Program-made: the position numbers and the translations under genes
The notes under the pieces: generated by a model
Database searches by the model: none
What the model saw: only the letters and a program-made list of their open reading frames with translations
Told to the model about the DNA's origin: nothing
In this document: piece after piece, positions 3 through 28,055 of the stretch
How the letters are laid out: the number at the start of each line of letters is the position of its first letter
Numbering within the stretch: position 1 is the stretch's first letter
Virus record (IMG/VR): IMGVR_UViG_3300035698_018320
Span: 1-28,055 of that record
Reading direction: 5' to 3' (one strand)
Origin: a virus
DNA length: 28,055 nucleotides

Positions 3-2585
3 GAAATATTATTAGAAGGTCATAATATTTATCCATACATAGGATCATATAAAGGTCTTATTAATGCTATTAAATTTTTTGGTTATAACAATTTACAACT
101 TAAAGAATTCTGGAAAAATGTAAATAAATCATCACCAAGATATGGCAAATATATTCATAGTAATGCTGTAGGTTTATTTGATCCTATTGTAGAATTTAAT
201 AATTTACAAATAACATTACCTAATAAGAATTTTAGAAAAACTAATTTATTTAGTTTAATTTATAAGATTAATAATATTGTACCTAATAGTTTTAATAGTG
301 ATGATTTACCAACAACAGAAGAATCTTTTGATTATACAATAGAAGAAGCTCTTATAAAATTATACGGTCTTAAATTAAAACTTGAAAAAGATTTTCTTCC
401 ATTAAATGCTCACATAAAAGATATAATTGGAGAAGCAGACTTTTTCGGCTTACTAGGAGTTACAAATACAGTAAGTAGAAATAATAGAAATACTCTTGAT
501 GTTGGAATTGACGCTGACTTTGAAGTAACACCAGATGGTTGTAAAATTTATCTAGAAGATTTAAGATCATTAGAAATGTTTTGTCTAGATGAAGATGCTA
601 TTGTTAACCAAGCAATTATTGATTATTGTAATGCGTGGATTGCACCTGCGGGTTTTGGAGTCGGTGGAGCAAATGTTTTACTAGGGCCAATAACGCTAGG
701 GCAAGCATTACCAGCATCACCAATTGGTCCGGATTTATATGGAGGATTTGATAATTCTTTTTTAGCTGGAAATAATATAAGTATTTCTTCAATAAGTAAT
801 AAATTTTTAGCTTACTTTAGTAGATATGCACCTAACTTAAAATATTCTAGATTTAATTATATACCTGGATGGTCATCAATGTATTTACCCGATAGTCCTA
901 ATGCTATAGCTGCAGGATTAGCAGTATTAGAAAATACAAGTTTTGGTGAGTTAACATGGAATAATATAGATTCTATATGGGATCAATTATCTAATGCAAA
1001 TAATTTCTATAGTGTTGATCTAAATCCACAGGGTGCTAACTCCGGTGATATATTTAAAATATATGAACCTATAACTGAAACAACAGTACAGTATGCAGTG
1101 CAGACTGGAGATACTGATGAAGATGTTAGAAACGAATTGTATAGTTTGTTATTAACATTAAAAAATAATTTCGTTAGCCCTTGGACATTTTGGGATCTAA
1201 GTAAAGAAACTGAAAATTACGGCGATGTTATTAGATTATATGGACAAGATGTATACGCATTACAATTATCTGTAACTCATCTTACATTACCAGGTTCATA
1301 TTTTGCGCTAAGACAATTACCTGGGGAGATACTATTTATTTGGAATAATATTATAAGAGGAAATTATATAGAAATAGAATGGACAGTTACTAAAGATGCT
1401 ACTGATACTTCAGCTGCATTTTATTACAACGCTAGAGGAAACTTGGCTGAGTATGAAAGGTTACCTGTAAGTTTACCATTTATTGGTAAGTATGACGTTG
1501 AAATGAAATTATACGATATGTATAATAATGTTTCATCAACGTTTAAAGAGGAAGCTATTTGTGTTGAACAAAGAGAGGTTGAATATTCCGGATGGTATCA
1601 AGCTAGAAAATATCAATATACTTGGGAAAATGATGGCGATTTTAAATGGGAAGATTATGGTTCATATTGGAATTTACCAATTGCGCCTAGTGTTACCTGG
1701 GACGAGGAATCTCCATCATTATATGAATCTCTTGATAGAGTAAATAGTATTCTTAATAATTTTGGATTAGGTACTTCACCCGATTTTCAACTACTTAATT
1801 TCCAAGATGATGGCACTGTTAGTTTTAGTGGACCTTATTTTTGGAATAATTTAACTGAAGGTGATTGGAATGATACTTATCATTTATGGTGGGATATGAC
1901 ATCTACTACTGGTGATACACCAGCATTTTTTCAGTTTAAAGAAATCATTAATAATACTTATTTAAAAATTACGGATTTAAACGGAGAAACTGGAGAGTTT
2001 TTCTTTGACACTAATATCACAACATTAGCCGAAGCAGCGGTTAAACTTAACTTAAGTCCAGATCCTGTTATTAATAAGTATGTTTATAATGTTGTTTATG
2101 ATGCAACAAATAATCAAAAGTTTATACAAGCAGTTGCTAGATACTTTGGTTTATTTGGAGATTGGACTTTTATTGATATTGTAGATGTTAATGGAGACAG
2201 AGTATGTGCATCATCAATTATAACAGGGGCAACGGGAGTTTCTCTCACGGGAGCTACAGGTTGCGATAGTTTAATCTATAGAAAAGGGCTACATACTACA
2301 AGTAATCCTACATGGAATACTGCAAAATTTGTAAATGATGGCAAAGAATTACCTAGAATGACATGGATTATGTTTGTGTATGATAAATGTATGATTGTAG
2401 GTAAGCAAAAAGCAAAGTGGACTATCAGAAATACAAGTGACTCAGATGTAGCAGATATATATTTTGATACCAAGTATTTAACATATTTATTCAAAAATCC
2501 AGGTGAGTACGAAATATTTTTAGAGCTTAGTGATGGGAACGGGAATAAATACAAAAAAGGAAGAAATATTCTTATAATAAAATAA
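3..2585 (+). CDS. Large virion structural protein with PKD/Ig-like domains (5' partial)
   Basis: The reading frame is open from base 3 to the TAA at 2583-2585, so the true start lies upstream; the first internal ATG is only at 576 and is not credible as the start. About 860 residues are visible. The N-terminal visible part (bases 40-130) has a Y-K-G-L-I-N-A-I-K-F-F-G-Y run reminiscent of the helical parts of baseplate/tail proteins. Two stretches, around bases 1340-1570 and 2360-2580, look like PKD/Ig-like beta-sandwiches (G-K-Y-D-V-E-M-K-L-Y-D and P-G-E-Y-E-I-F-L-E-L-S-D-G-N-G). A short T-G-A-T-G repeat linker lies near base 2225. Trp/Tyr-rich composition fits an extracellular virion protein. 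The next gene starts 10 bases downstream. A baseplate or tail role is inferred from context; I do not recognise an exact family. Confidence 0.7.
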   Translation, partial: EILLEGHNIYPYIGSYKGLINAIKFFGYNNLQLKEFWKNVNKSSPRYGKYIHSNAVGLFDPIVEFNNLQITLPNKNFRKTNLFSLIYKINNIVPNSFNSDDLPTTEESFDYTIEEALIKLYGLKLKLEKDFLPLNAHIKDIIGEADFFGLLGVTNTVSRNNRNTLDVGIDADFEVTPDGCKIYLEDLRSLEMFCLDEDAIVNQAIIDYCNAWIAPAGFGVGGANVLLGPITLGQALPASPIGPDLYGGFDNSFLAGNNISISSISNKFLAYFSRYAPNLKYSRFNYIPGWSSMYLPDSPNAIAAGLAVLENTSFGELTWNNIDSIWDQLSNANNFYSVDLNPQGANSGDIFKIYEPITETTVQYAVQTGDTDEDVRNELYSLLLTLKNNFVSPWTFWDLSKETENYGDVIRLYGQDVYALQLSVTHLTLPGSYFALRQLPGEILFIWNNIIRGNYIEIEWTVTKDATDTSAAFYYNARGNLAEYERLPVSLPFIGKYDVEMKLYDMYNNVSSTFKEEAICVEQREVEYSGWYQARKYQYTWENDGDFKWEDYGSYWNLPIAPSVTWDEESPSLYESLDRVNSILNNFGLGTSPDFQLLNFQDDGTVSFSGPYFWNNLTEGDWNDTYHLWWDMTSTTGDTPAFFQFKEIINNTYLKITDLNGETGEFFFDTNITTLAEAAVKLNLSPDPVINKYVYNVVYDATNNQKFIQAVARYFGLFGDWTFIDIVDVNGDRVCASSIITGATGVSLTGATGCDSLIYRKGLHTTSNPTWNTAKFVNDGKELPRMTWIMFVYDKCMIVGKQKAKWTIRNTSDSDVADIYFDTKYLTYLFKNPGEYEIFLELSDGNGNKYKKGRNILIIK

Positions 2586-2595
2586 AAACAATAAT

Positions 2596-3246
2596 ATGCC
2601 AATATCAGTAACAGAAATTTTAGGGACCGATTCATTATCAGGATCTAGATTAGTTATCAATGATAACTTTAACGTATTGAAGAGTGAAATAAATGAGATG
2701 GGAAATTATTTTAATCCATCAGCTGGGACCATTACAAATTTAAACGATGTAAAAACTGAATCGTTAAGAGTTGGTTTAACAACAATACTCTTGGATATTA
2801 ATGCATCAACATTTGATATCTTAACTAATGTAAATTTAACCGGAAATTTAACTCTTAGTAATTCTAAGTTAATTAGAAACAGTGTTGATCCTCAATTGCT
2901 TGATGATGTTTATGCGGGTTCAGGTATGACTATAAATGTTGGTACTAGTACAGCTGTGCCACCATTCACATTTGAGAATGTTGGAAATGTAGGTACATCT
3001 ACATTAAGTCTTCAACTTTATGATGGTTTAATAGGACAAGAAATTATTTTTGTTTATTCAGAAGCATCAACAGGCGCCGTTGATATTGTTGGAGGTTCTA
3101 CTGCATTAGTTTTACCTGGTGCAGGTGCAACACCTACTGTGACTCTTAATGCACAAGGTGATAGTGTACATTTCATATTTGTTAGTGATAGTACAGGAAA
3201 TGGTTATTGGTACATCATCGGCGGCGCAGGTTATACAATTTCATAA
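2596..3246 (+). CDS. Small tail-fibre/virion-associated protein
   Basis: 216 residues, ATG start behind an A-rich leader. The N-terminus (M-P-I-S-V-T-E-I-L-G-T-D-S-L-S, then N-D-N-F-N) closely resembles that of the collagen-like fibre at 14626, suggesting a shared attachment module of about 30 residues. The rest is Gly/Thr/Ser-rich with short beta-strand-like segments (N-L-T-G-N-L-T-L-S-N) typical of phage fibre shafts, and the C-terminal ~100 residues resemble a small beta-sandwich ending G-Y-W-Y-I-I-G-G-A-G-Y-T-I-S. No catalytic motif is visible. The GIY-YIG endonuclease gene begins 13 bases after its stop. Fibre or whisker-like function is inferred; the exact family is not recognised. Confidence 0.6.
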   Translation: MPISVTEILGTDSLSGSRLVINDNFNVLKSEINEMGNYFNPSAGTITNLNDVKTESLRVGLTTILLDINASTFDILTNVNLTGNLTLSNSKLIRNSVDPQLLDDVYAGSGMTINVGTSTAVPPFTFENVGNVGTSTLSLQLYDGLIGQEIIFVYSEASTGAVDIVGGSTALVLPGAGATPTVTLNAQGDSVHFIFVSDSTGNGYWYIIGGAGYTIS

Positions 3247-3259
3247 TAAAAACTTAAAG

Positions 3260-3919
3260 ATGAAAAAAAAATATTATACTTATAAAATAACCAATATCAA
3301 AAATGGTAAAATGTATATTGGATCAAGAGAATCTATATTAAAACCTAAAGAGGATCTTGGTAAAATATATTTCTCTAGTTCATTAGATAAAGAATTTATA
3401 AATAATCAAAAAGAAAATCCAAATCATTATAAGTATGATATATTAAAAACATTTTCATCGCGTAAGAATGCTGATATATATGAATCGAAATTACATAGTG
3501 AATATAATGTAGATAAAAATCCAATGTTTTATAATAGATCTAAACAAACATTAAACGGTTTTAGATATAATCCAACTGGTACAAAATTATCGGAAGAACA
3601 TAAAGTAGCAATAAGTAGAGGTGGAATAGGTAGACAATGTTCAATAGAAACAAGAAAGAAATTAAGAGATGCAAATTTAGGTAAGAAACTTTCTGAATCC
3701 CATAAGCTTAAAATATCAGAAGCTAATATGGGTAAAATTGTATCAGAAGAATGTAAAAAGAAAATGTCAATAGCTAGGAAGAAAAGAGTTGGTAAATTGG
3801 CGCCATCTTATGGAATGAAGCATAAAAAGAAAAAATGTGTGTATTGTAATAGACATATAGCGGTTTCTTGCTTTAGTAGATATCATGACAATAATTGTAA
3901 ACAAAAAATAAACAACTAA
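3260..3919 (+). CDS. GIY-YIG homing endonuclease, free-standing
   Basis: I chose the ATG at 3260 (219 aa) because the open frame upstream of it overlaps the preceding gene and the protein then begins directly with the catalytic fold. Residues 5-23 carry the GIY-YIG signature in the form Y-Y-T-Y-K-I...G-K-M-Y-I-G-S-R, with R23 as the likely catalytic Arg and E75 or E81 as the likely metal ligand. Residues ~105-172 hold three to four NUMOD3-like DNA-binding repeats (G-T-K-L-S-E-E-H-K, G-K-K-L-S-E-S-H-K, G-K-I-V-S-E-E-C-K). The C-terminus has a probable zinc finger (C193-x2-C196 ... H209-x3-C213). Such enzymes nick or cut a target in related phages and spread their own gene. Its TAA overlaps the ATG of the next structural gene by one base (TAATG), so it sits neatly between two structural genes rather than in an intron. 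Confidence 0.88.
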   Translation: MKKKYYTYKITNIKNGKMYIGSRESILKPKEDLGKIYFSSSLDKEFINNQKENPNHYKYDILKTFSSRKNADIYESKLHSEYNVDKNPMFYNRSKQTLNGFRYNPTGTKLSEEHKVAISRGGIGRQCSIETRKKLRDANLGKKLSESHKLKISEANMGKIVSEECKKKMSIARKKRVGKLAPSYGMKHKKKKCVYCNRHIAVSCFSRYHDNNCKQKINN

Positions 3920-6033
3920 TGCCATCAACACCACTAATAAAAACGCCTCAAGCAGATGGAACAACCTTTTATACGTTTTCTTCATCAGCTAGAGACATAT
4001 CTAAAACTTTAAATAATGAAAGTCTTAAATTAGTCTTTTCAAAGTTCCTATTGGTTAATATTCCTGACTTTGATCGATTAGATCCTACGACATATAGTAA
4101 TTACGAAAATTATATGCAGTTTGATACAATCGATGGATCTATACTCAATGGCGGACTTAAAAGTGATCCTAATATTAATTTTACTGAAAGTTTTCAAAAT
4201 TATGCACTTAATTTAGAAGAGCTTATACTAAGTGATAGTGGATATGATAATGACTTAAATAGATCTGTTTCTGAAAGAGTATTTTTTAAATGGCTCAAAG
4301 AAACTGGAGCTATTCGTTTTAGAGAAGCAACTAATCTTGAGAAAAATCCTGGAATAACAAAACCTCTATTTGTTGAAGAAGATCAAAGATCTAGTGGTAT
4401 CCTACAGTACAATCGAGTAGTTAAGTATATTGGTGATATTGACATTATTAATAATGTAGATAAGGCCGGGGAAGCTTATACGGAATTATATATTAACGTA
4501 CCAACTGAAGTAGGTGGTACGCCTACTATACTATTTGATGCTATAGATGATAATAATTATCAACCATCATTAAGTATACAAGGTTCTGATGAATTTATAT
4601 TAGGTAGAGGAACATCAACAGATCATCCACAAGGTTTAGATATACTTGCAGCTTATGATTATGATCAAGCTTTAGCTGGGGCAGGTCCTGCTGGATATAC
4701 TGACCCTAATGCAAATTGGATGAATGGCACGACACCACCAACAATATTAAATTCATATTTTACTGAACCTACTACATTTCAAATTGCAGATAATGTTGAT
4801 ATCAGAAAGTACACAGCTGATTATGGAAGTCCTGCTGGATTTTCAGGAGTTGCATATCGTAGAAATAAATTAGATGGAATCTCTATTGATTTTGATACTA
4901 ATGATTATGAACAAATTATTACGGATCCAAGTATTTCAACGATACAGCAATTTAATGGGAGTATATTATCATCTACATTTGAATTCAATGCAGTATTAGT
5001 TTATTATGATATGGTTGACTTAAGCGATTCTACTAACACCGTAACAAATTTATATGGAATACTTCTTCTTGATAATATTACACCAACAACAGACGGTGGA
5101 TATATCCAAAGATATCCAAAATATAAGCCTAACAAAGTTACTGGTCAAAATGGTAATAGTTATGGTTTTAAGATTAATTTAAGATTTGATGCATCACCAG
5201 GATCAAATGGTGTTGATACAATTATAAATGATTATAATACATTTTCAATGGGATTATTTTCAGATGCTATGGTTAAATTACAAGAATCTGCTAAAATATT
5301 TCAATCACAACAAGTTGAAATTGTTAATTTAACTAATAGATTATATGATGTAGAAAACTTATTAGCAAGTGTTGGTGAAGTTTCTGTGTTACAAAAACAA
5401 ATTAATAGTTTACAGACACAAATAAATAATGCAGCACTTGCATTTGCAACTAATAGCTCACTGCTTGATTTAATTGCTAAGAATTCAGACGATCTCCAAA
5501 AACTTGCAAATGGAGAAATTTCTACAAACTTACAATATAATACTGATGTTGTTAGACAAGGACCTGGTATTATTGTAGATAAAAATACGCCTAATCAAAT
5601 TCAAATTGAATTAAAAGCTCAAGAATATGCATTAATGGTTTCCAGGGATGAATCTAATGTTGATATTACATCAACTGATCCAATTAACTTAAATATAGCT
5701 CAACCTAAAGTTTATGCTGAATTATTGCCTTATACAAATATGTTAAGAATTGACACAGTAAATACAGCGGGTGGAGATTTATTAATTTATATTGATGATA
5801 CTGACACTCAATGGAAAACCGGACAAACAATCAGATTAACATTTAATAATACTTTAAGTATAGGTTCAAGAAATATTAGAGTATTTACAGATGCTCAAAA
5901 TAGACGTAACACTGGAATTTATAAGGTCGAAGTTGGAATAATTACAAACGCTGATATATCAACTAAACCTATAATTGAATTAATTTGTTTAGAAGAAGGT
6001 GTTTTAAGATTTACATATGATATTATCAAATAA
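3919..6033 (+). CDS. Virion structural protein, probably baseplate/tail (704 aa)
   Basis: Starts at the ATG sharing one base with the endonuclease stop and ends 16 bases before the next start. The N-terminal half is mixed alpha/beta with S-E-R-V-F-F-K-W-L-K-E-T-G-A-I-R-F near residue 120. Residues ~445-525 form a heptad-like coiled coil (L-Q-K-Q-I-N-S-L-Q-T-Q-I-N), followed by a beta-rich C-terminal domain from ~545. No enzyme motif or transmembrane segment is visible. The coiled coil followed by a beta domain, and its position among large structural genes, suggest a trimeric virion component such as a baseplate wedge or fibre-connector protein. I do not recognise a specific T4 counterpart. 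Confidence 0.6.
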   Translation: MPSTPLIKTPQADGTTFYTFSSSARDISKTLNNESLKLVFSKFLLVNIPDFDRLDPTTYSNYENYMQFDTIDGSILNGGLKSDPNINFTESFQNYALNLEELILSDSGYDNDLNRSVSERVFFKWLKETGAIRFREATNLEKNPGITKPLFVEEDQRSSGILQYNRVVKYIGDIDIINNVDKAGEAYTELYINVPTEVGGTPTILFDAIDDNNYQPSLSIQGSDEFILGRGTSTDHPQGLDILAAYDYDQALAGAGPAGYTDPNANWMNGTTPPTILNSYFTEPTTFQIADNVDIRKYTADYGSPAGFSGVAYRRNKLDGISIDFDTNDYEQIITDPSISTIQQFNGSILSSTFEFNAVLVYYDMVDLSDSTNTVTNLYGILLLDNITPTTDGGYIQRYPKYKPNKVTGQNGNSYGFKINLRFDASPGSNGVDTIINDYNTFSMGLFSDAMVKLQESAKIFQSQQVEIVNLTNRLYDVENLLASVGEVSVLQKQINSLQTQINNAALAFATNSSLLDLIAKNSDDLQKLANGEISTNLQYNTDVVRQGPGIIVDKNTPNQIQIELKAQEYALMVSRDESNVDITSTDPINLNIAQPKVYAELLPYTNMLRIDTVNTAGGDLLIYIDDTDTQWKTGQTIRLTFNNTLSIGSRNIRVFTDAQNRRNTGIYKVEVGIITNADISTKPIIELICLEEGVLRFTYDIIK

Positions 6034-9974: not shown

Positions 9975-12900
9975 ATGGCCGAAAATTTATTTGATAAAGC
10001 TTCATATAGCATAATAAGAACTAATCCTAGTCTTACTGGTAACGTAAAGCTACTTAGTAATGGTGATGATCTTTATTTAGAATCATTTAATGCTAATGAA
10101 AGATTATCGTCTTCAACGTTTAAAGCATTTAAACTTGACGGTGAATCAACATATGATGAAGTACGTTTTTAAATTCTTCCAAGAAGGAAATTTCCCGATA
10201 GATTTAGCATATGAAGTATTCCAAGAAACTGATGATGTATCAGTAGCATCTAAATATGATAATCAATATGAGATGTTTTATTCTGCTGGGACAAGAGCAG
10301 TTACATCAGAGTCGTATACCGAAGATATGGCAATTCTATCACCTATTTGGTTAAACGAACAAATTCCAAATTATTTTGTTATATTTAGATTGGATGATCC
10401 TGCTGCAGTTAATAACATAAATACAGTAATTGAAAATCAGGGTGAATCTGATGCACAAACATCAGCAGAATTTACAAAGAATGTTTTAGAAAAATGTACA
10501 GCAATTAAAACATTTGATTTAAGAGAGCGTTCAACTCTAGGTGGATATTTAAGAAGATATCGTTCACAGGAATCATTTCCTCGATCACCGCTTACAGTTT
10601 CATGGAGAAAGGATACACCTATTTATTGGAATGGAATATCTTATAATAGTGGTGGATTTACTTCAGGTTGTAGTTTTTCTTATGATGATTTAATTGTACA
10701 GGATGCTACTATTATACAAAATGAATATTTCTTCACAGATGGATTTCGTCGAAACGGCATTTTATTAGCTAATCTTATTAACATGGAATTTTTATTTAGT
10801 GATAATTATGCTGAAGATTATTCATTGAATCGTTATTTTGGATTATATGTAAATGAAATTAATGAAGGAGAATTTCGTTTAGATGGAGAAGAGTTTTATA
10901 AAAATACTGAAAAATCTCAACTACCTAAGATAACAAGTATTACACAAATATCTAAAGATTTAAATGATTCTTTTGAAATTTCAAATAACAAAGGCGTATT
11001 GTTATTTCTAGATGAAGTTACTACAACAACCGGAGTACCTACACCAGCAAGAGTAAATGAAGTCGAATCGATTTTTTATGTCAAAGATAAAAATAGCGAA
11101 TTCCATACCATTAAAAAAGGATCTCAATGGGATGATAATCAAATAAGATTATTTGATAAAAAAATTGATATGTCTTCTTTATCAGGATTTGGAGAACTTG
11201 ATACTTTTGCAAATGCAAATGTTTTAAGTAGATATGGTAATGCAACATGCTATTTTAATATCTTAGATGAAATTCCATACGGAGTAAAAATCAAATTTTA
11301 TGATGGGCTTATATACGTAGGAGAAATAAATGCTGAAACTACACTTACGACAGGACCTGGATCAAATTATTTATATTTCTTTAATCCTACAGGAACTCCT
11401 GGTGAAATTGCTAAAGCAATGTCTAAAGCAATAAATGCTGGAATACCACAAGGTGATAGATTTTTTAATGCATCATATAACGATTCAACTGTATATTTAG
11501 AATCAAGACTTTATGGAAAACGATTTAATAATTTAAACTTTGTAATTAATTATGATGATTACCCAGGGTTAGACGAATCTATTACTACATATCCATCTAC
11601 TTCTGAATCAAATAGCAAATCGAATTTTATTGGCGGTAATGATAAAAATAATTCATTACTTAAAGTAGAAATAAATGATCAATTCAGATTTATAAAAGGT
11701 AGTTATGTACAAACCAAAGATGGTTTTACATTAATTGAAGATTGGGTTCCATATTTGGATGAACCTATTACCGATGATGCCGAAAATATTTTAGGTTATA
11801 CTGATATTGATAAGTATGTAATAATAACATTAAATAATAATCAAGTTACAGTTACACGAACTAATCAAGTTGCATTATATTCTGAATTTAAATCAACATT
11901 CGGTAGATTTTCATTCTTTCCAATAAGAGATTTTGATTTTAATTTCTATAGTGAACTTTATAGTCAATTAGGAGAATTAGAATATGAATATTCTAATTAT
12001 AACTATAGTACAGTAGGATCTAATCCACCTGATTATATAGGAATGAGTTTAAATCCAGATATTAGAACATTTTATGAGAATGAAGGATTTTCAAATCTAA
12101 TTGGCTTACTTAAAGAATCTGATCCTGATGTTAATTATGATACAACAATAACATCGGAATATCAAAGATTAGAAGAAAATTATATAAAAAGCTTAGCGAT
12201 AGCATCTAGATCTGTACCTTACATTAATAAGTGGGTATGGCACAAAGATGGAATGAATGTTAGAAATGTTCCTTATCGTCTTAATTTAAATGAAGCGTTT
12301 GGAATTAATAATTTTGCACCAAGTAAATATGCTGATGGACAATACCCAGCAAGTTTTTCTCATGAATGGTATTACTTATCAGAGTTCCCTTTGTACTTTA
12401 CACAGGATGCAATAGAAAATTCATGGAGTTATATTGATAATACACCTGTTGATTCTACTGAAGAAAATATCTTAGAATTTATTGAATATGCACCTGGAAC
12501 ATTCCAACGAATTGATAATAATTATTTTAATGAATATTTTATTGCTGATAAATTTACAACCGATGGGATTACATTAATTGATAGACAATTAAGATATGGT
12601 AGATTTAATGGAGGAGATTCTGAAAATTTTGCAGAAACATTTTTAAGAGGGATTAGAATAATTGCAAAATCTAAAAAATCAGGAACAGAAAAAGCTAATT
12701 ATAATGCTAAAAAATTATCATACATTAAAGATGCATCATTTAATGATTATCGTTTTTCTGTAATATTGATACCTAATCAAACTAATAAACCAGAAACTCA
12801 AATTAAATTTATAAAAAATGATAAATGGAAAACTATTGTAATGATGATTTTTATAACTCTTTCTGACGAATGTATTAATAGTGGAAATGCAATTATTGAT

Positions 12901-14619
12901 AGAACGACTTTATATTCTTATAAAAACAAATATGTAAAAAATAATGATTGTGAACCTACTCTTACATCAGATGGTTTATATGAATATGAAGATGGACTTA
13001 TGCAAGGTGCTATTAGATTAGATGCATCTGGTTATGATAGCATAGTAGAATCATATTTAATTCAAGGTGTTGCTGATATAAACGGTATTCCTACATCATT
13101 TGTTAATGATATTACAATTGGTGCTAATGGAAAATATGTACCTATTACATTTACTATTGATGCGGATGTATACATAATAGATGAAATTTCTAGAATAATT
13201 GATAATAATAAACTATATGCTTCTTCTATTACTAAGAATGGTATTAATATGTTATTACCAAATTCTTATGTATCAGGGATAGCTCTTCTTAATGCTACAT
13301 ATATTACAGTAGGTGGAGGTTATAGAAATTATATTAGTAACTTATCATCAATTAGTTTTTCGAACATATTTAAAAATGTTAATCAAGGTAATCCTGATAT
13401 AATTTACGAAACTATTGATATTAATGGAAATAGATTAACTAATGATGATAACACCTTTTCACAAACGTTTTCAATTGAATTAAGAGCGCAAGATGATATT
13501 CTTAAATCAATGTATCTAGGCATACTATCAGACCCAGGAAAGCCAACAAAATTTAATTTAGTTGATGTTATAGGATATGAATTATCATTACAAAAAATTC
13601 CTAGAATTACTCCTATTGCTAGACATTCAGGCTATTACGAGCCTTTATCTAATCCTATAATATTTTTTAGAGATCCTTATTTAGAATATGACTTTACTGG
13701 ATATGATACTGGAGTCACAACGGGTTCAACTGGGGGTACGGGTTCAACAGGAAATACACCTATACCAGATCAATTATATAAAGAATCTGTTTTAGCATTA
13801 TGTAGATATGCTAATACTCAGTTTCATAGTAGTAATGCTGCATTTGGACAAATTAACGATTTATTTTATCATAAAGTAAATGAACAGGATGCTTCATCAG
13901 TATTAGAATTATCTAAGGACGATGTATATTTAAGTCAATATCCATTGATTAATGAAATAGGAATTAATTACAAAGATTTTTATATATTTTCTTCTAATTG
14001 GGAGCCTGGATACTTTACAAAAAATATAGATAAGTCTACTATTGCATCTGTAATTGGCACAAGATCTATGAAAGAAAATAAATCATTTTTCGGTTCTAAG
14101 TATTTAAAAGTACCTCAACAAATTACATTGGAAACGTTTATTCCTGCTGAGTATTTAAAAGATGCTATTCAAAATCCATCTTTATCTGATGGTGAATTTA
14201 TGTATGTAGACAATTCATCAAATATAGAATTTTACTTATTCGTTAAAAAACGATTAGTTAAGTATTTGTTTAATTATATTTACATTACATTCGAAAAATA
14301 TATTAATCCTGAATTTGGATATGGCAATGTAAAAACTCTTACTGATGATATCGAAGCATATATTGAACAAAATATTTTGAAAATGTATAATGTAACTAAT
14401 GTTGATTTTTATGTTAGAAATACGCGTCAAAATATTCCATTAGATTATACAACAGCAGAATTAACTAATTCTAATAAAACATCAAGTGGTTTATCTACTA
14501 ATACAGCATTTTCATCAAATCGTCTTAATACTAATCCATTTGATTTAAAACTAATATATAACAAAAGGACAGGTTTTTCTGAAGCCTTTGGTTTTAGTAT
14601 AACTCTTATTAAAAAATAA
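9975..14619 (+). CDS. Giant virion structural protein (~1548 aa) with +1 frame break
   Basis: The ATG at 9975 opens a frame that reaches a TAA at 10170-10172. The following frame, shifted by +1, is open to 14619. Joining them at CGT TTT (T) AAA gives a smooth protein: M-A-E-N-L-F-D-K...D-E-V-R-F-K-F-F-Q-E-G-N-F. The ATGs of the second frame between 10090 and 10172 give an out-of-register, implausible N-terminus, so I treat both frames as one gene. One extra T in the run 10166-10170 (natural indel, sequencing error or programmed +1 slippage at TTT-TAA) explains the break. The protein is Tyr/Asn/Asp-rich with no visible enzyme motif. A G-S-T-G-G-T-G-S-T-G linker lies near base 13735, followed by a distinct C-terminal domain. 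A baseplate/tail role is inferred from context. Confidence 0.6.
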
Positions 14620-21479: not shown

Positions 21480-21586
21480 TAAAATACTTAATACCTTTTG
21501 TATACCCAATTTAGCTATTAAATACTTTTCTTTCTTTTTACAGTTAAATTTTATATAGAAGAAACTCAAATTTGTTTCAGAATATT

Positions 21587-21874
21587 ATGATAAAATCTCT
21601 AGGAAATAGAATTTTTTTAAAAAAAGACGTACAACCGGAAAAAATCGGCAGTATTTATGTACCAAAAAAAGAAGGTGAATATGCACCACCTTATGCAGGT
21701 ACAATTATTTCAGTTGGATCTAAAGTTGAAGATGAAGATTTTATAGTTGGAATTAAAGTATTATTCCATGATATGGCAGGTGTTGAATTCGAAGTTGATA
21801 ATGAGAAATATTTAAGTATTAGAGAAGAAGATATTGTTGCAATCCTACCAGATAATAATGTGAGAATTTCATAA
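21587..21874 (+). CDS. GroES-type co-chaperonin (95 aa)
   Basis: I chose ATG 21587 over the in-frame TTG at 21572 because the family begins almost directly with the first strand (I-K-S-L-G-N-R-I-F-L-K-K). The 95-residue length equals that of bacterial GroES. The mobile loop that contacts GroEL is visible as K-I-G-S-I-Y-V-P (residues 19-26, compare G-G-I-V-L in GroES), followed by Y-A-G-T-I-I-S-V-G, I-K-V-L-F-H-D-M-A-G and a C-terminal strand E-E-D-I-V-A-I-L. It would cap the host GroEL chamber during capsid protein folding, as T4 gp31 does, but it resembles cellular Cpn10 more than gp31. It stands alone between two noncoding gaps. Confidence 0.88.
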   Translation: MIKSLGNRIFLKKDVQPEKIGSIYVPKKEGEYAPPYAGTIISVGSKVEDEDFIVGIKVLFHDMAGVEFEVDNEKYLSIREEDIVAILPDNNVRIS

Positions 21875-24284: not shown

Positions 24285-24733
24285 TGGCATATGATGATAG
24301 CAAAATAAAGGAAGTTAATATTGAATTAGAAAACCGATTATTGTTAGATAGAAAATCGTGGGTTTCTAAAATTGATAAACTTATTCAGAAAATAAAAAAT
24401 ATGAATGAGTTAGGCGATTGCCAAGTACATATGTTATCGTATAGACAAATTCTTTTAGATAAAATCATTGAATTCAAAAGTATGATTTATAAAAGAAATG
24501 CTTCTTGGGAAAATTATTATAAAGCTAAGTATAGAAGTTATACTTTAGATTATGACATTAAATTAACAGGTGGCGAAAAACATCAATTTATAAAAGCTGA
24601 TCTTTCCTCACTTAGACATCAAATAGATATGTTACAATCTCATATTGATTTTTATCAAGATAGTATTAAAACATTAGATAATATGGCTTTTGCTATTAGA
24701 AATAGAATTAGATTAGATGATGAACAACAATAA
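24284..24733 (+). CDS. uvsY: UvsY-like recombination mediator (149 aa)
   Basis: The length (T4 UvsY 137), all-helical composition and the pattern around residues 85-145 (Y-D-I-K-L-T-G-G-E-K, then K-A-D-L-S-S-L-R-H-Q-I-D-M-L-Q...L-D-N-M-A-F-A-I-R-N-R-I) fit UvsY-type proteins, which load the UvsX recombinase onto gp32-covered ssDNA. The position directly before a UvsW-type helicase is the same as in T4 (uvsY, uvsW.1, uvsW). Sequence similarity in this family is low, so the call rests partly on synteny. Start and stop are each coupled to neighbours by one-base TAATG overlaps. Confidence 0.68.
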   Translation: MAYDDSKIKEVNIELENRLLLDRKSWVSKIDKLIQKIKNMNELGDCQVHMLSYRQILLDKIIEFKSMIYKRNASWENYYKAKYRSYTLDYDIKLTGGEKHQFIKADLSSLRHQIDMLQSHIDFYQDSIKTLDNMAFAIRNRIRLDDEQQ

Positions 24734-26090
24734 TGATACTATCCTTATCAGAAAATAAAAAGTTTTTAATAATCGATTCATGTACTGAACTTGAATACGA
24801 TCAATTAAAAAGTAGCCTCACTAAGAAAATTGAAGGGTGGCGGTTTCATCCCCTTGTGAAGAAAAAATTATGGGATGGGAACATTTCATTTATAAAAAGA
24901 AATAAAATTGCAGCAGGCTTATGGAAAGAAGTAATCGATATTTGTAAAGAATATGACTTTGAATTTAAGCTGAATAATATAACTCAATTATTTGACACTG
25001 ATATAAAAGAACCTGAATTTGTTGAGTGGGTTAATGACTTTTTTAAAACTTCACCTTATGATCCTAGAGATTACCAAATAGACGCAGCATTTAAAATACT
25101 TAAATATCGAAGATGTTTAGCGGAATTAGCAACATCTGCTGGTAAAACTCTTATATCATTTATGGTCATTGCATATATGATGGAACGATTACATTATAAA
25201 AAAATATTAATGATCGTACCTAATGTGAGTTTAGTTGTACAAGGTACTGGAGATTTTGAAGAATATAACAAAAGTAGATTACAATTAAAGATACAGCAAA
25301 TATATGCAGGTGTAAAAATAAGACTAGTTCAAATATTGTTATTGGAACATATCAATCTTTAGTTAAAAAGGATGAAGAATATTTCAAACAATTTGATGCT
25401 GTTTTTGTAGATGAAACTCACAAAGCAAAAAGTCAAAGTATTCAAACAATTATGGATAAGTGTTGGCATTGTGATTTTAGATTTGGATTATCTGGTACTA
25501 TTCCTAAACCTCGTACAGTTAATAGATTATCTCTTATGTCCGCAATGGGACCTTTAGTAACTCAAGTAAAAGCTGCAGATTTACAAGAACAAGGATATAT
25601 TGCAAAATGTAAAGTTTTACAAATTCATATGAATTATGCAACAGATAAACAAAAAACTGCATTCTATGAATTACAAAAAAATTATGATAGGCAAAAATTA
25701 TTTTCGCTTGAACAAAATTTTATCAATGATAATGAAAAGAGATTAAACTTTATTTGTCAAGTTATTAATAAATCAACCTCTAATTCATTAGTACTTTTTC
25801 ACAAAATTGCGTATGGTGAAAAAATATTTAAAAAGCTAAAGGCCATCACTAATAAGAAAGTTTATTATGTTGATGGCAGTGTTAGTGCTGATATAAGAGA
25901 AGACTATAAGAAAAAAATGGAAGATGCAGAAACACAAGAAGAATATATTATATTTGAGTTAGATAATTTTAAAGCAGCTGTACCAAAATATGTAAATATT
26001 AAATTAATAGATGGTTCATTTAAACATGCTGGTAATATATCTATTACTGATGATTTAGATGAAGATTTTTTAAAACAATATAAAGAATAA
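24733..26090 (+). CDS. uvsW: UvsW-like helicase, N-terminal part (uvsW-a), frame break and foreign tail
   Basis: The N-terminus has the UvsW-specific domain (G-W-R-F-H-P-L...L-W-D-G-N-I, compare G-Y-R-F-N-P...N-W-D-G-R-I in T4), then Walker A A-T-S-A-G-K-T (K138), DETH box at 25410-25421 and motif III S-G-T near 25491. UvsW is a superfamily-2 helicase that unwinds R-loops and branched DNA, helping switch from origin- to recombination-dependent replication. The frame changes by -1 in the A-run 25314-25318; one extra A gives G-V-K-N-K-T-S-S-N-I-V-I-G-T, as expected for the family. UvsW homology runs to about 25950 (D-G-S-V-S-A-D-I-R-E-D-Y-K-K-K-M-E-D), after which ~45 residues (from F-E-L-D-N-F to Q-Y-K-E) have no counterpart in UvsW. 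Motifs V-VI are in uvsW-b. Confidence 0.85.
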
Positions 26091-26125
26091 CTCTTTCTAC
26101 TGGAATATATATTAAAATAGGAATA

Positions 26126-27085
26126 ATGTTAAATTTTAAACAATTATTTATAGATAAGCATGGTTTACCGGATGATGAAAAGTTTCTCGACGAGTATATA
26201 GAATTAGTAACATGTTACAACGAATTTATTAATGATCAATATTTTGAACAACATCATATTTTACCAAGGGCATTTTTTCCTGAGTATGTTTCAGATAAAA
26301 GTAATATAGTTAAATTATTATACAAAGATCATATTATAGCACATCAGTTATTATTTAAGGCATATAATAATAGAACATACCAAAGACCATTAAATTGGAT
26401 GATAAATGAAGTTGATTATAAAACACATGAAAATATATCAAATGCAGCAAAAAATGGGTGGATAAAATTAAAAAAAAATAAAGAAAAATATAATAAATGG
26501 ATAAAGATTCGATCTAATTATATGAAATCTTTATCATCAGATGAACAACTTAGAAGATGTAATATATTTTGGGATAATATTACAGAAGAAGAATATAACG
26601 AATTTTGTAATAAAATGAAAGAAATTTGGACAGATGATGCTAGATTTATACAATCAAAAAAGTTAAAAGAGTATTATAAAGATCCTAAAAATAGGGAAAA
26701 AAAGTCAGCTGAAGCTATATTAATGTATAAAACGCGAACGGAAGAAGAACGCAATACATTTAAAATAAAAATGAATGAAGTCAATAAACGAAAGGATAAA
26801 AGAGATAAGGCAGGAAAAACTATTAAAGAAAAATGGAAAACTGATGAATTTAGAAATATAATGATGAATCGTAAATCTAAACCTGGCATAAAAATTAAGT
26901 TAGTTTTTCCATCTAAAAAAGAGGAAGTTTATAATAGTTTAAGCGAATTACACAAAAAAACTAATATCTCATTACATATAATAAGAAATTGTATTAATAA
27001 TAATAAACCAATACAATCTAAGAAAAAAATGTATCAATTATTTGTAGGTTGTATTATAAAAAAAATAAATAATGGCAAAAATTAA
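26126..27085 (+). CDS. HNH homing endonuclease inserted in uvsW (319 aa)
   Basis: The His-Me finger is visible at residues 41-75: E-Q-H43-H44-I-L-P-R, then N60-I-V-K-L and H69-I-I-A-H73. The middle is Lys-rich with repeated short helices (W-T-D-D-A-R-F, E-E-R-N-T-F-K, K-W-K-T-D-E-F-R), a DNA-contact region, and residues ~270-300 (S-L-S-E-L-H-K-K-T-N-I-S-L-H-I-I-R-N-C-I) look like a NUMOD1-type helix-turn-helix. It lies between the two halves of uvsW with only 35 bases of noncoding DNA before it, and its 3' end overlaps the uvsW-b start by 14 bases. There is no room for a group I intron, so it interrupts the gene as a free-standing element, as with other endonuclease-split genes of T4-like phages. 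Its frame extends upstream to 26084 and encodes a UvsW-like T-L-S-T-G-I-Y-I-K segment. Confidence 0.88.
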   Translation: MLNFKQLFIDKHGLPDDEKFLDEYIELVTCYNEFINDQYFEQHHILPRAFFPEYVSDKSNIVKLLYKDHIIAHQLLFKAYNNRTYQRPLNWMINEVDYKTHENISNAAKNGWIKLKKNKEKYNKWIKIRSNYMKSLSSDEQLRRCNIFWDNITEEEYNEFCNKMKEIWTDDARFIQSKKLKEYYKDPKNREKKSAEAILMYKTRTEEERNTFKIKMNEVNKRKDKRDKAGKTIKEKWKTDEFRNIMMNRKSKPGIKIKLVFPSKKEEVYNSLSELHKKTNISLHIIRNCINNNKPIQSKKKMYQLFVGCIIKKINNGKN

Positions 27086-27426
27086 TAATATTAAAAAAGA
27101 AATAAGAAATAAGGATGCTACAGTAGTTATTGTAGCATCCTATTGAGTATGGGACATTCTCAACCGGTATATCGATTAAAAACATCCATAATATATTTTT
27201 TACAGAATCATTTAAGTCTGAAGTAATTATTAGGCAGTCAATTGGTCGTGGTTTACGTAAACATATATCAAAAAATATTGTAAAAATTTATGATTTTATT
27301 GATGATTTACGTTATACAAAAAATGGTCATGAATCTTTAAATTATATTTATAGACATGGAATTGAAAGAAGAAAAATATATAAAGAAGAAAAATTTCCAT
27401 TTGAAGTACAAAATATAAATTTTTAA
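27072..27426 (+). CDS. uvsW: UvsW-like helicase, C-terminal part (uvsW-b), with 7-nt interruption
   Basis: The ATG at 27072 gives M-A-K-I-N-N-I-K-K-E-I-R-N-K-D-A-T-V-V-I-V-A-S-Y and then TGA at 27144. The downstream frame, shifted by +1, continues G-T-F-S-T-G-I-S-I-K-N-I-H-N from 27151 to the stop at 27424-27426. Dropping 27144-27150 yields V-A-S-Y-G-T-F-S-T-G, which matches T4 UvsW (V-A-S-Y-G-V-F-S-T-G-I-S-V-K-N). Motif VI Q-S-I-G-R-G-L-R-K begins at 27235, and the end (E-E-K-F-P-F...N-I-N-F) parallels the T4 C-terminus. This half supplies the second RecA-like domain's motifs V and VI, so helicase activity would need assembly with uvsW-a. Either recoding reads through the interruption or this copy is dead. 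Confidence 0.8.
27112..27141 (+). other. 11-bp perfect hairpin just upstream of the uvsW-b interruption
   Basis: AGGATGCTACA (27112-27122) pairs with TGTAGCATCCT (27131-27141) around the loop GTAGTTAT. The stem lies inside the codons for K-D-A-T-V-V-I-V-A-S and ends on the first base of the TAT codon preceding the premature TGA. A structured RNA at a recoding site is typical of bypass and frameshift signals, but the same bases also encode conserved residues, so the structure could be coincidental. Confidence 0.6.
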
Positions 27427-27481: not shown

Positions 27482-28055
27482 ATGAATACTATTAAAAAGT
27501 TTTCAACAATATCTAATAACATTTCTGCTATATTAGAATCAAAAAACATAAGTGAAGAACAATTAACTGAACTTGTTAAAAAATTAGGATTCAATTCTAT
27601 TGAAGATGTTAAGAAGGAAAAAAACCTTTTAGCAAAACTTGAAGCTTTATTAAAGGAATTCCCTACTAAACAGGATGTATCTGAAGATGAGGCAGAAGAT
27701 ATTGAAGATGAAATTAAGAAAAAAGGTGAGCCTAAATCTATAGAAGATAAAGAAGGTGAAAAGGAAGAAGAGGGCGAAACTGGTACTGAATCTGAAGAAG
27801 ATGAAGTTGCTGAAGAAACTGAAGAAGAACCTGCAGCTGAAGAAGAACCTGCAGCTGAAGAAGAACCTGCAGCTGAAGAAGAACCTGCAGCTGAAGAAGA
27901 ACCAGAACCAGAGCCTGAAGAAAAATCAGCAAATAGGATTTTGGCATTTGATGAATTTATAAATCAAGCTGAAGAAGAAGCTGAAGAAGAACCTGCAGCT
28001 GAAGAAGAACCTGCAGCTGAAGAAGAAACAGAAGCTGAAGAAGAATTAGAAGAAC
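27482..28055 (+). CDS. Acidic protein with PAAEEE repeats (3' partial)
   Basis: The ATG at 27482 opens a frame that runs off the window (191 codons). Residues 1-60 are helical and charged (M-N-T-I-K-K-F-S-T-I-S-N-N-I...L-A-K-L-E-A-L-L-K-E-F). From ~65 on the protein is extremely acidic, with hexapeptide repeats P-A-A-E-E-E, an interruption reading S-A-N-R-I-L-A-F-D-E-F-I-N-Q, and more repeats. Highly acidic, Glu-rich proteins occur among phage prohead core/scaffold proteins and as disordered interaction tails, but no family is identifiable. A 55-base A-rich gap without clear promoter precedes it. Opposite-strand and other-frame ORFs here are artefacts of the repeat. Confidence 0.7.
   Translation, partial: MNTIKKFSTISNNISAILESKNISEEQLTELVKKLGFNSIEDVKKEKNLLAKLEALLKEFPTKQDVSEDEAEDIEDEIKKKGEPKSIEDKEGEKEEEGETGTESEEDEVAEETEEEPAAEEEPAAEEEPAAEEEPAAEEEPEPEPEEKSANRILAFDEFINQAEEEAEEEPAAEEEPAAEEETEAEEELEE
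27821..28036 (+). repeat. 18-bp coding tandem repeats (PAAEEE)
   Basis: Four perfect 18-bp copies lie at 27821-27892 and two more at 27983-28018, followed by a degenerate copy to 28036. The unit reads GAAGAAGAACCTGCAGCT. Copies are identical at the DNA level, including synonymous positions, which points to recent expansion by slippage or unequal recombination. Copy number is likely to vary between related phages and may be unreliable in an assembly. Confidence 0.9.

Follow-up and report, generated by a model that had tools for sequence, protein, structure and literature searches.

A homing cassette in the phage helicase gene uvsW with a putative hairpin-driven ribosomal bypass site and an intein-like tail

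The stretch of DNA analysed here, referred to as the window, is the whole of IMG/VR record IMGVR_UViG_3300035698_018320 (28,055 bases). It derives from a marine phage in which the helicase gene uvsW is split by a mobile homing cassette just before motif V; all features of the split gene described below lie on the plus strand. The splitting of uvsW is itself already known from phage LIMEstone1. What is new here is a folded C-terminal tail of ~45 amino acids (aa), common to the N-terminal parts (N-parts) of UvsWs split at this site, and a signal composed of hairpin, stop codon and gap in the C-terminal part (C-part), uvsW-b. Judged from its reading frames, the C-half would not be made by ordinary initiation, and the signal would have to be recoded. 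Recoding of some kind is very probable, and our preferred reading, to which we assign a rough probability of 0.65, is a short programmed ribosomal bypass across the gap, by analogy with T4 gene 39-mobA-60. On balance, we think it probable that a widespread family of uvsW cassettes in T4-like phages carries hairpin-driven bypass sites of 4–11 nucleotides (nt), independent of that in T4 gene 60, along with a non-splicing tail that would aid assembly of the two-piece helicase.

Hairpin, stop codon and gap in uvsW-b

The sole plausible start codon for uvsW-b is the ATG at 27072, which overlaps the end of the endonuclease gene and opens a leader open reading frame (ORF; 27072–27146) encoding MAKINNIKKEIRNKDATVVIVASY and then UGA. 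The leader ends in ...VVIVASY, and the body of the gene (27151–27426, GTFSTGISIKN...QSIGRGLRK...EVQNINF, containing motifs V and VI) continues past the gap in a different frame, one that opens at 27136 and holds no ATG, GTG or TTG through 27426. The 7-nt gap, UGAGUAU (27144–27150), begins with the stop codon at 27144–27146 and ends with the putative landing codon, a UAU (27148–27150) that matches the proposed take-off codon, the UAU for the tyrosine of VASY (27141–27143). Directly 5' of this codon is a hairpin of 13 base pairs (bp) with a 4-nt loop (27112–27141; arms 27112–27124 and 27129–27141). The first-pass annotation, made from the DNA alone, had described two plain genes around the endonuclease; neither half answers to that description, the C-half frame being startless and the N-half losing its frame around 25314–25330.

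A degenerate DNA pattern, combined with a search for the tail, revealed stop-initial gaps immediately after a VASY-type codon in 15 further metagenomic contigs; some of these are near-identical copies, and the independent lineages number perhaps five to seven. With the window included there are seven gap types, every one of them beginning with a stop codon: 4 nt (TGAC), 6 nt (TAGTGA and TAGTGC), 7 nt (TGAGTAT in the window, TGAGTAC and TAGGTGC) and 11 nt (TGAATGATTCG). In the other contigs the gaps end at GTF or GIF codons, and that of contig L204 is almost identical to the gap of the window. In view of this recurrence, assembly error was rejected as the origin of the 7-nt insertion. All gapped C-parts on sufficiently long contigs have a tailed N-part upstream, and in L246 and L207/L216 the gap is kept without any endonuclease between the parts. 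No second C-part was found in the six records checked, which may be fragments. The exact patterns of the window did not occur in viral contigs, nor was there a near-identical record, and distant blastn searches of annotated phage isolates returned no gapped copy among the matches listed.

A hairpin of 10–13 bp with a 3–4-nt loop is present in all distinct gapped sequences, its 3' arm ending at the take-off codon or within a few bases of it. Several of its pairs differ in type across lineages with complementarity kept, in lineages that are related and in an arm that, on the 3' side, is also constrained by coding. By contrast, ungapped split genes, whose C-parts are in-frame genes, have no hairpin or weaker, irregular ones, the clearest pair being L213 (ungapped) and L228 (gapped). 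Leader peptides are short, at 18–24 aa. The suggestion that KDATVVIVASY merely reflects a coincidental hairpin was rejected, given that LIMEstone and metagenomic C-parts show the same kind of leader.

Purifying selection acts strongly on the coding sequence past the gap, which evolves like a working gene. Between L246 and L252, 37 codons beyond the gap have accumulated 20 silent changes and 0 replacement changes. Nonsynonymous and synonymous differences per site (Nd/N and Sd/S) in this region are 0.065 versus 0.76 for L212/L246, 0.040 versus 0.62 for L217/L222, and 0.085 versus 0.75 for L233/L263, a pair whose 6-nt gaps (TAGTGA, TAGTGC) are one base apart. Synonymous sites of the leader and hairpin, conversely, are nearly frozen, with 1.0 change in 15.0 sites as against 27.0 in 39.2 downstream (L212/L246), 1.5 in 11.8 against 29.0 in 38.7 (L233/L263) and 0 in 11.8 against 25.4 in 38.5 (L207/L233, a comparison sharing L233 with the preceding one). 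In L217/L222 the tail and the leader are each near-identical and the downstream gene has diverged, a pattern consistent with the cassette having moved in one piece.

We propose that the cassette consists, in order, of uvsW-a with an element-derived tail, the HNH endonuclease, and uvsW-b with a start of its own. The uvsW-b leader would supply the native strand VVIVASY and would be followed by the stop codon, the short gap, and GTFSTG onward. The strong hairpin 5' of the take-off codon would let the ribosome skip the gap, moving from UAU to UAU over 7 nt in the window, to give ...VASY-GTFSTG..., as in intact UvsW. Association of the two chains would follow, possibly helped by the intein-like tail. 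Purely by analogy with what has been proposed for T4 39-mobA-60, the gap probably protects the cassette from its own endonuclease, and it probably began as a shield of the rejoined target site.

A single rule, by which the ribosome leaves at the take-off codon and resumes at the GGN codon, yields VASY-GTFSTG, VASS-GTFSTG or IATY-GIFQQG at every gap length, and no one frameshift, readthrough or reinitiation yields the same product across gap lengths. The stop immediately follows the take-off codon and the stem-loop sits at the take-off site or 5' of it, as would be expected of a bypass signal. The window, L204, L207, L233 and L263 have no upstream ATG, GTG or TTG in the frame of the C-part, and the GGN codon of L207 and L233 stands right behind a stop. 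Several observations, however, weigh against this reading. Landing codons match in three gap types only, those of the window, L204 (UAU/UAC, both Tyr) and L185/L190, and are unmatched in TGAC, TAGTGA, TAGTGC and TAGGTGC; gap lengths of 4, 6, 7 and 11 nt correspond to different frames; and alternative starts in the C-part frame occur in L212/L246/L252 (ATG, 13 codons upstream), L217/L222 (GTG), and L228 and L265 (TTG). Furthermore, the leader of the window begins MAK.. and not with the usual MKP.., a weaker hairpin also forms at this site in an intact relative, and a 1-nt frameshift in uvsW-a may indicate either a dead copy in the window or a noisy record. It is the short gaps, the confinement of matches to three gap types and the alternative starts that set our estimates for bypass and for recoding in general where they stand.

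The alternative that survives best, one that we nonetheless consider unlikely, is a mixture of recoding events other than bypass: a +1 shift at UAU-UGA/UAG for the 4- and 7-nt gaps, readthrough for those of 6 nt, and reinitiation or a −1 shift for that of 11 nt, together adding one to four residues before GTFSTG. The +1 frame is indeed open in the window (UAU UGA G to GAG UAU GGG) and similarly in L204, L212, L228 and L265, and a GTG overlaps the UGA in L217/L222. Yet no single shift fits 4, 6, 7 and 11 nt; a +1 shift in the 11-nt type runs into a stop, TAG TGA requires two readthroughs, and Tyr-tRNA is unable to re-pair at AUU. Skipping of the gap, on the other hand, restores the sequence of the relatives in every case without extra residues.

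The interrupted helicase gene and its endonuclease

The first frame of uvsW-a (24733–25362) encodes the UvsW N-terminal domain and Walker A, runs out of frame near 25314–25330 and stops at 25362. Relative to all relatives compared, a 1-nt frame change, either sequencing error or real mutation, lies within 25314–25335; the gene continues in another frame (25362–25922) with DETH and SGT, to ...REDYKKKME. Position 25922 marks the last residue homologous to intact UvsW, and a 55-codon open extension leads from there to 26090; left-half UvsW homology, which had been thought to reach 26090, thus ends earlier, with a foreign tail beyond. The helicase motifs lie at the positions given in the first-pass annotation, and both flanks of the endonuclease match UvsW families of the PHROGs database (phrog_16259, phrog_9690 and phrog_17901), which confirms the assignment of the two halves. 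Comparison of an intact relative with T4 UvsW (2OCA) gave an E-value of 4.8e-70, with homology over both RecA domains. Among 160 loci examined at the uvsW site of relatives (two overlapping sets of 80), the gene that was taken to be split here is, in relatives sharing gene order, one continuous ORF of ~500 aa, save where a contig end cuts the locus. The exception is L068, a relative otherwise intact, whose uvsW has lost a short segment precisely at motif V, around position 5600. The record of the window is itself a fragment, and a second uvsW may lie outside it.

The intervening ORF (26126–27085) encodes an HNH homing endonuclease of 319 aa, as had been predicted, with matches to phrog_12434 (E 1e-18) and phrog_655 (E 2.9e-16). 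It is free-standing and inserted immediately before motif V, within a gene that relatives carry uninterrupted. Across its full length it shares 41% identity with the endonuclease of L252 at the same uvsW site; an exact-peptide search of viral contigs with the endonuclease alone found no relative. Upstream of it, a 28-nt remnant of motif V (26090–26117), identical at 25 of 28 positions to relative L037, is in frame with the endonuclease start. A second homing endonuclease, with NUMOD3 motifs and a weak SegE-like GIY-YIG match, is encoded at 3149–3919, where it separates two genes spaced about 20 nt apart in relatives.

Might the uvsW of the window be simply a pseudogene, or an artefact of sequencing or assembly? 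The frameshift at ~25329 is accompanied by another of 1 nt at ~10165, in a gene for a protein of ~1500 aa (9975–14616, phrog_31887) that is intact in relatives; both set the record apart from all relatives compared and suggest that it may be noisy or the copy inactive, and there was no near-identical record against which to check them. Against this, the gap is found again in the 15 further contigs, where selection acts on either side of it. In addition, the ratio of nonsynonymous to synonymous change (pN/pS) is 0.14–0.25 in all three uvsW pieces of the window, below the 0.27–0.33 of five neighbouring genes, so that uvsW has been constrained for most of its history. Hence, we judge a pseudogene or artefact to be distinctly improbable.

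Excision of the insert by a group I intron, rejoining uvsW, is more improbable still, to the point of being negligible. It draws on the fact that the nearest annotated relatives of the endonuclease (I-LimII type) reside in polymerase genes with group I introns detectable by Rfam. At permissive thresholds, however, Rfam detected no group I intron in the window, the LIMEstone uvsW or six other loci, and it did detect the I-LimII polymerase introns used as positive controls. The insert lacks a P7-like GACTA/ATATAGTC pair and VIIVAS codons are missing from the left exon; ungapped C-parts are in frame, and in the Vibrio phages there is a 4-nt overlap between the N and C genes. The absence of an intron had been claimed at the outset on the grounds that too little space was available. 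That conclusion stands, but the argument from size is invalid because the insert comprises ~270 nt besides the endonuclease.

An intein-like tail, and other genes of the window

The element-derived C-terminal tail of uvsW-a (25944–26090, YIIFELDN...DEDFLKQYKE*) belongs to the tail family of split UvsWs. It shares 28% identity over 50 aa with the LIMEstone tail (0 of 5000 shuffles), and a profile of eight other tails, from which that of the window was excluded, picked it out as the sole significant frame (E 7.4e-6; next 1.6) among the 595 stop-to-stop frames of the window. The tail is carried by 19 Dickeya phage records, as the tail of the LIMEstone N-part, and by 58 Vibrio phage records. In the two Vibrio phages inspected, D506 and K469, uvsW consists of two genes that overlap by 4 nt, with the tail and no endonuclease; the split can therefore outlive the invader. 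In metagenomic contigs, tailed N-parts are followed by an HNH, GIY-YIG or remnant endonuclease and then by the C-part. A different arrangement was seen in Vibrio phage 1.244.A (1633–3378), where a single UvsW of 581 aa has a tail-like segment in frame before motif V.

AlphaFold modelling of the L233 N-part (16 sequences) predicts the tail to be a compact unit of four strands plus a helix (pLDDT about 78–85), preceded by a low-confidence linker. In the region of N-intein block B, the tail resembles the second halves of the motif II N-inteins (hhalign probability 92.7%, P 4.2e-7); neither the motif V tail nor the C-part leader has a block A nucleophile or a C-terminal HN/SN. Tails searched alone against Pfam, PHROGs and the PDB gave no significant match, nor did the window tail alone against phages. 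On the best reading, the tail is a non-splicing module of intein origin, and we suggest that its role may lie in assembly of the two chains. Trans-splicing of the halves by a functional split intein is the least credible of the alternatives: for all the resemblance to an N-intein and the presence of true split inteins at motif II in L212, L265 and L228, the motif V tail is devoid of block A and Cys1, and the C-part leader, at 10–20 aa, of a C-intein and terminal Asn.

Those motif II cases, recognised as true split inteins from their sequence, were observed in UvsW-like helicases split at DE|CH, in L212 (8778–10477), L265 (1112–2809) and L228 (2436–4427, reverse), with another type of endonuclease between the halves; the L212 split gave matches to Hint (E 5.6e-10) and intein_Nterm (E 2.5e-9). 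Owing to this second split, the helicase of these three contigs is encoded in three genes. L228 has an apparent further intein in the same helicase (2436–3485, reverse), which ends at Walker A (...THN|SGKS).

Elsewhere in the window, 21572–21874 encodes a GroES-like co-chaperonin (phrog_3188). Downstream of uvsW, 27482–28055 encodes an acidic protein with EEPAAE-type repeats, of which versions of ~510–580 aa in relatives match the N-terminus only.

Comparison with known systems

The uvsW of LIMEstone1 (NC_019925) was published as ORF124, I-LimI and ORF122, interrupted by a putative intron (PMC3296691); it comprises an N-part of 463 aa, the HNH endonuclease I-LimI and a C-part of 109 aa. The first-pass statement that no UvsW case had been described is thus superseded, and the Vibrio phages with a split uvsW and no endonuclease also count against it. 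The window resembles LIMEstone1 in its insertion site before motif V, its HNH endonuclease, its homologous tail and a C-part overlapping the end of the endonuclease gene. It differs in that the LIMEstone1 C-part is in frame and has neither gap nor hairpin, and I-LimI is only ~27% identical to the window endonuclease over part of its length. The split, the tail and a separate C-part (beginning MKPTK..) are also seen in Vibrio phages D506 and K469, which, unlike the window, possess no endonuclease and no gap and whose two uvsW genes have 4 nt in common.

Fractured genes with split inteins, in the order N-part, endonuclease, C-part, were reportedly described by Dassa et al. in 2009. The window has this order in common with them; however, its motif V tail is without splicing residues, and its chains would stay separate. 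True examples of that class among our contigs are the motif II splits of L212, L265 and L228. In phage Aeh1, nrdA-a/mobE/nrdA-b is a ribonucleotide reductase gene split by a homing endonuclease gene, and its product works as two chains (PMC2988022); unlike in the window, the gene is a different one and no gap is described.

Among phages, T4 gene 60 is the main known case of efficient programmed bypass, other candidates being few, and the existence of counterparts with a shorter reach has long been assumed (PMC5009743); literature treating uvsW together with bypass amounted to one incidental co-occurrence. Should our interpretation prove correct, the uvsW cassettes would provide seven naturally occurring gap types that share one simple signal of hairpin, codon and stop, enabling comparative tests of gap length, of landing-codon match and of the stem-loop 'motor'. 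They would also suggest a route taken repeatedly, whereby an endonuclease invades a gene, a small insertion disguises the target and the ribosome makes good the damage. A further hint, from the intein-like tail, is that failed inteins can persist in split proteins.

The closest precedent for the proposed recoding is T4 gene 60, part of a gene split by an endonuclease, in which the take-off codon adjoins a stop and is matched by the landing codon, and a 5' stem-loop acts as a motor (PMC5009743). The window shares with T4 39-mobA-60 an HNH split, a gap in the downstream piece, a stop after the take-off codon, an upstream stem-loop and matched codons (PMC5009743, PMC2988022). The uvsW cassettes depart from it in residing in a helicase gene, in the intein-like tail of their N-part and in a landing codon that is not always matched. 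Whereas the gap of T4 gene 60 spans 50 nt, those of uvsW span 4–11 nt, and at these putative bypass sites the hairpin abuts the take-off codon.

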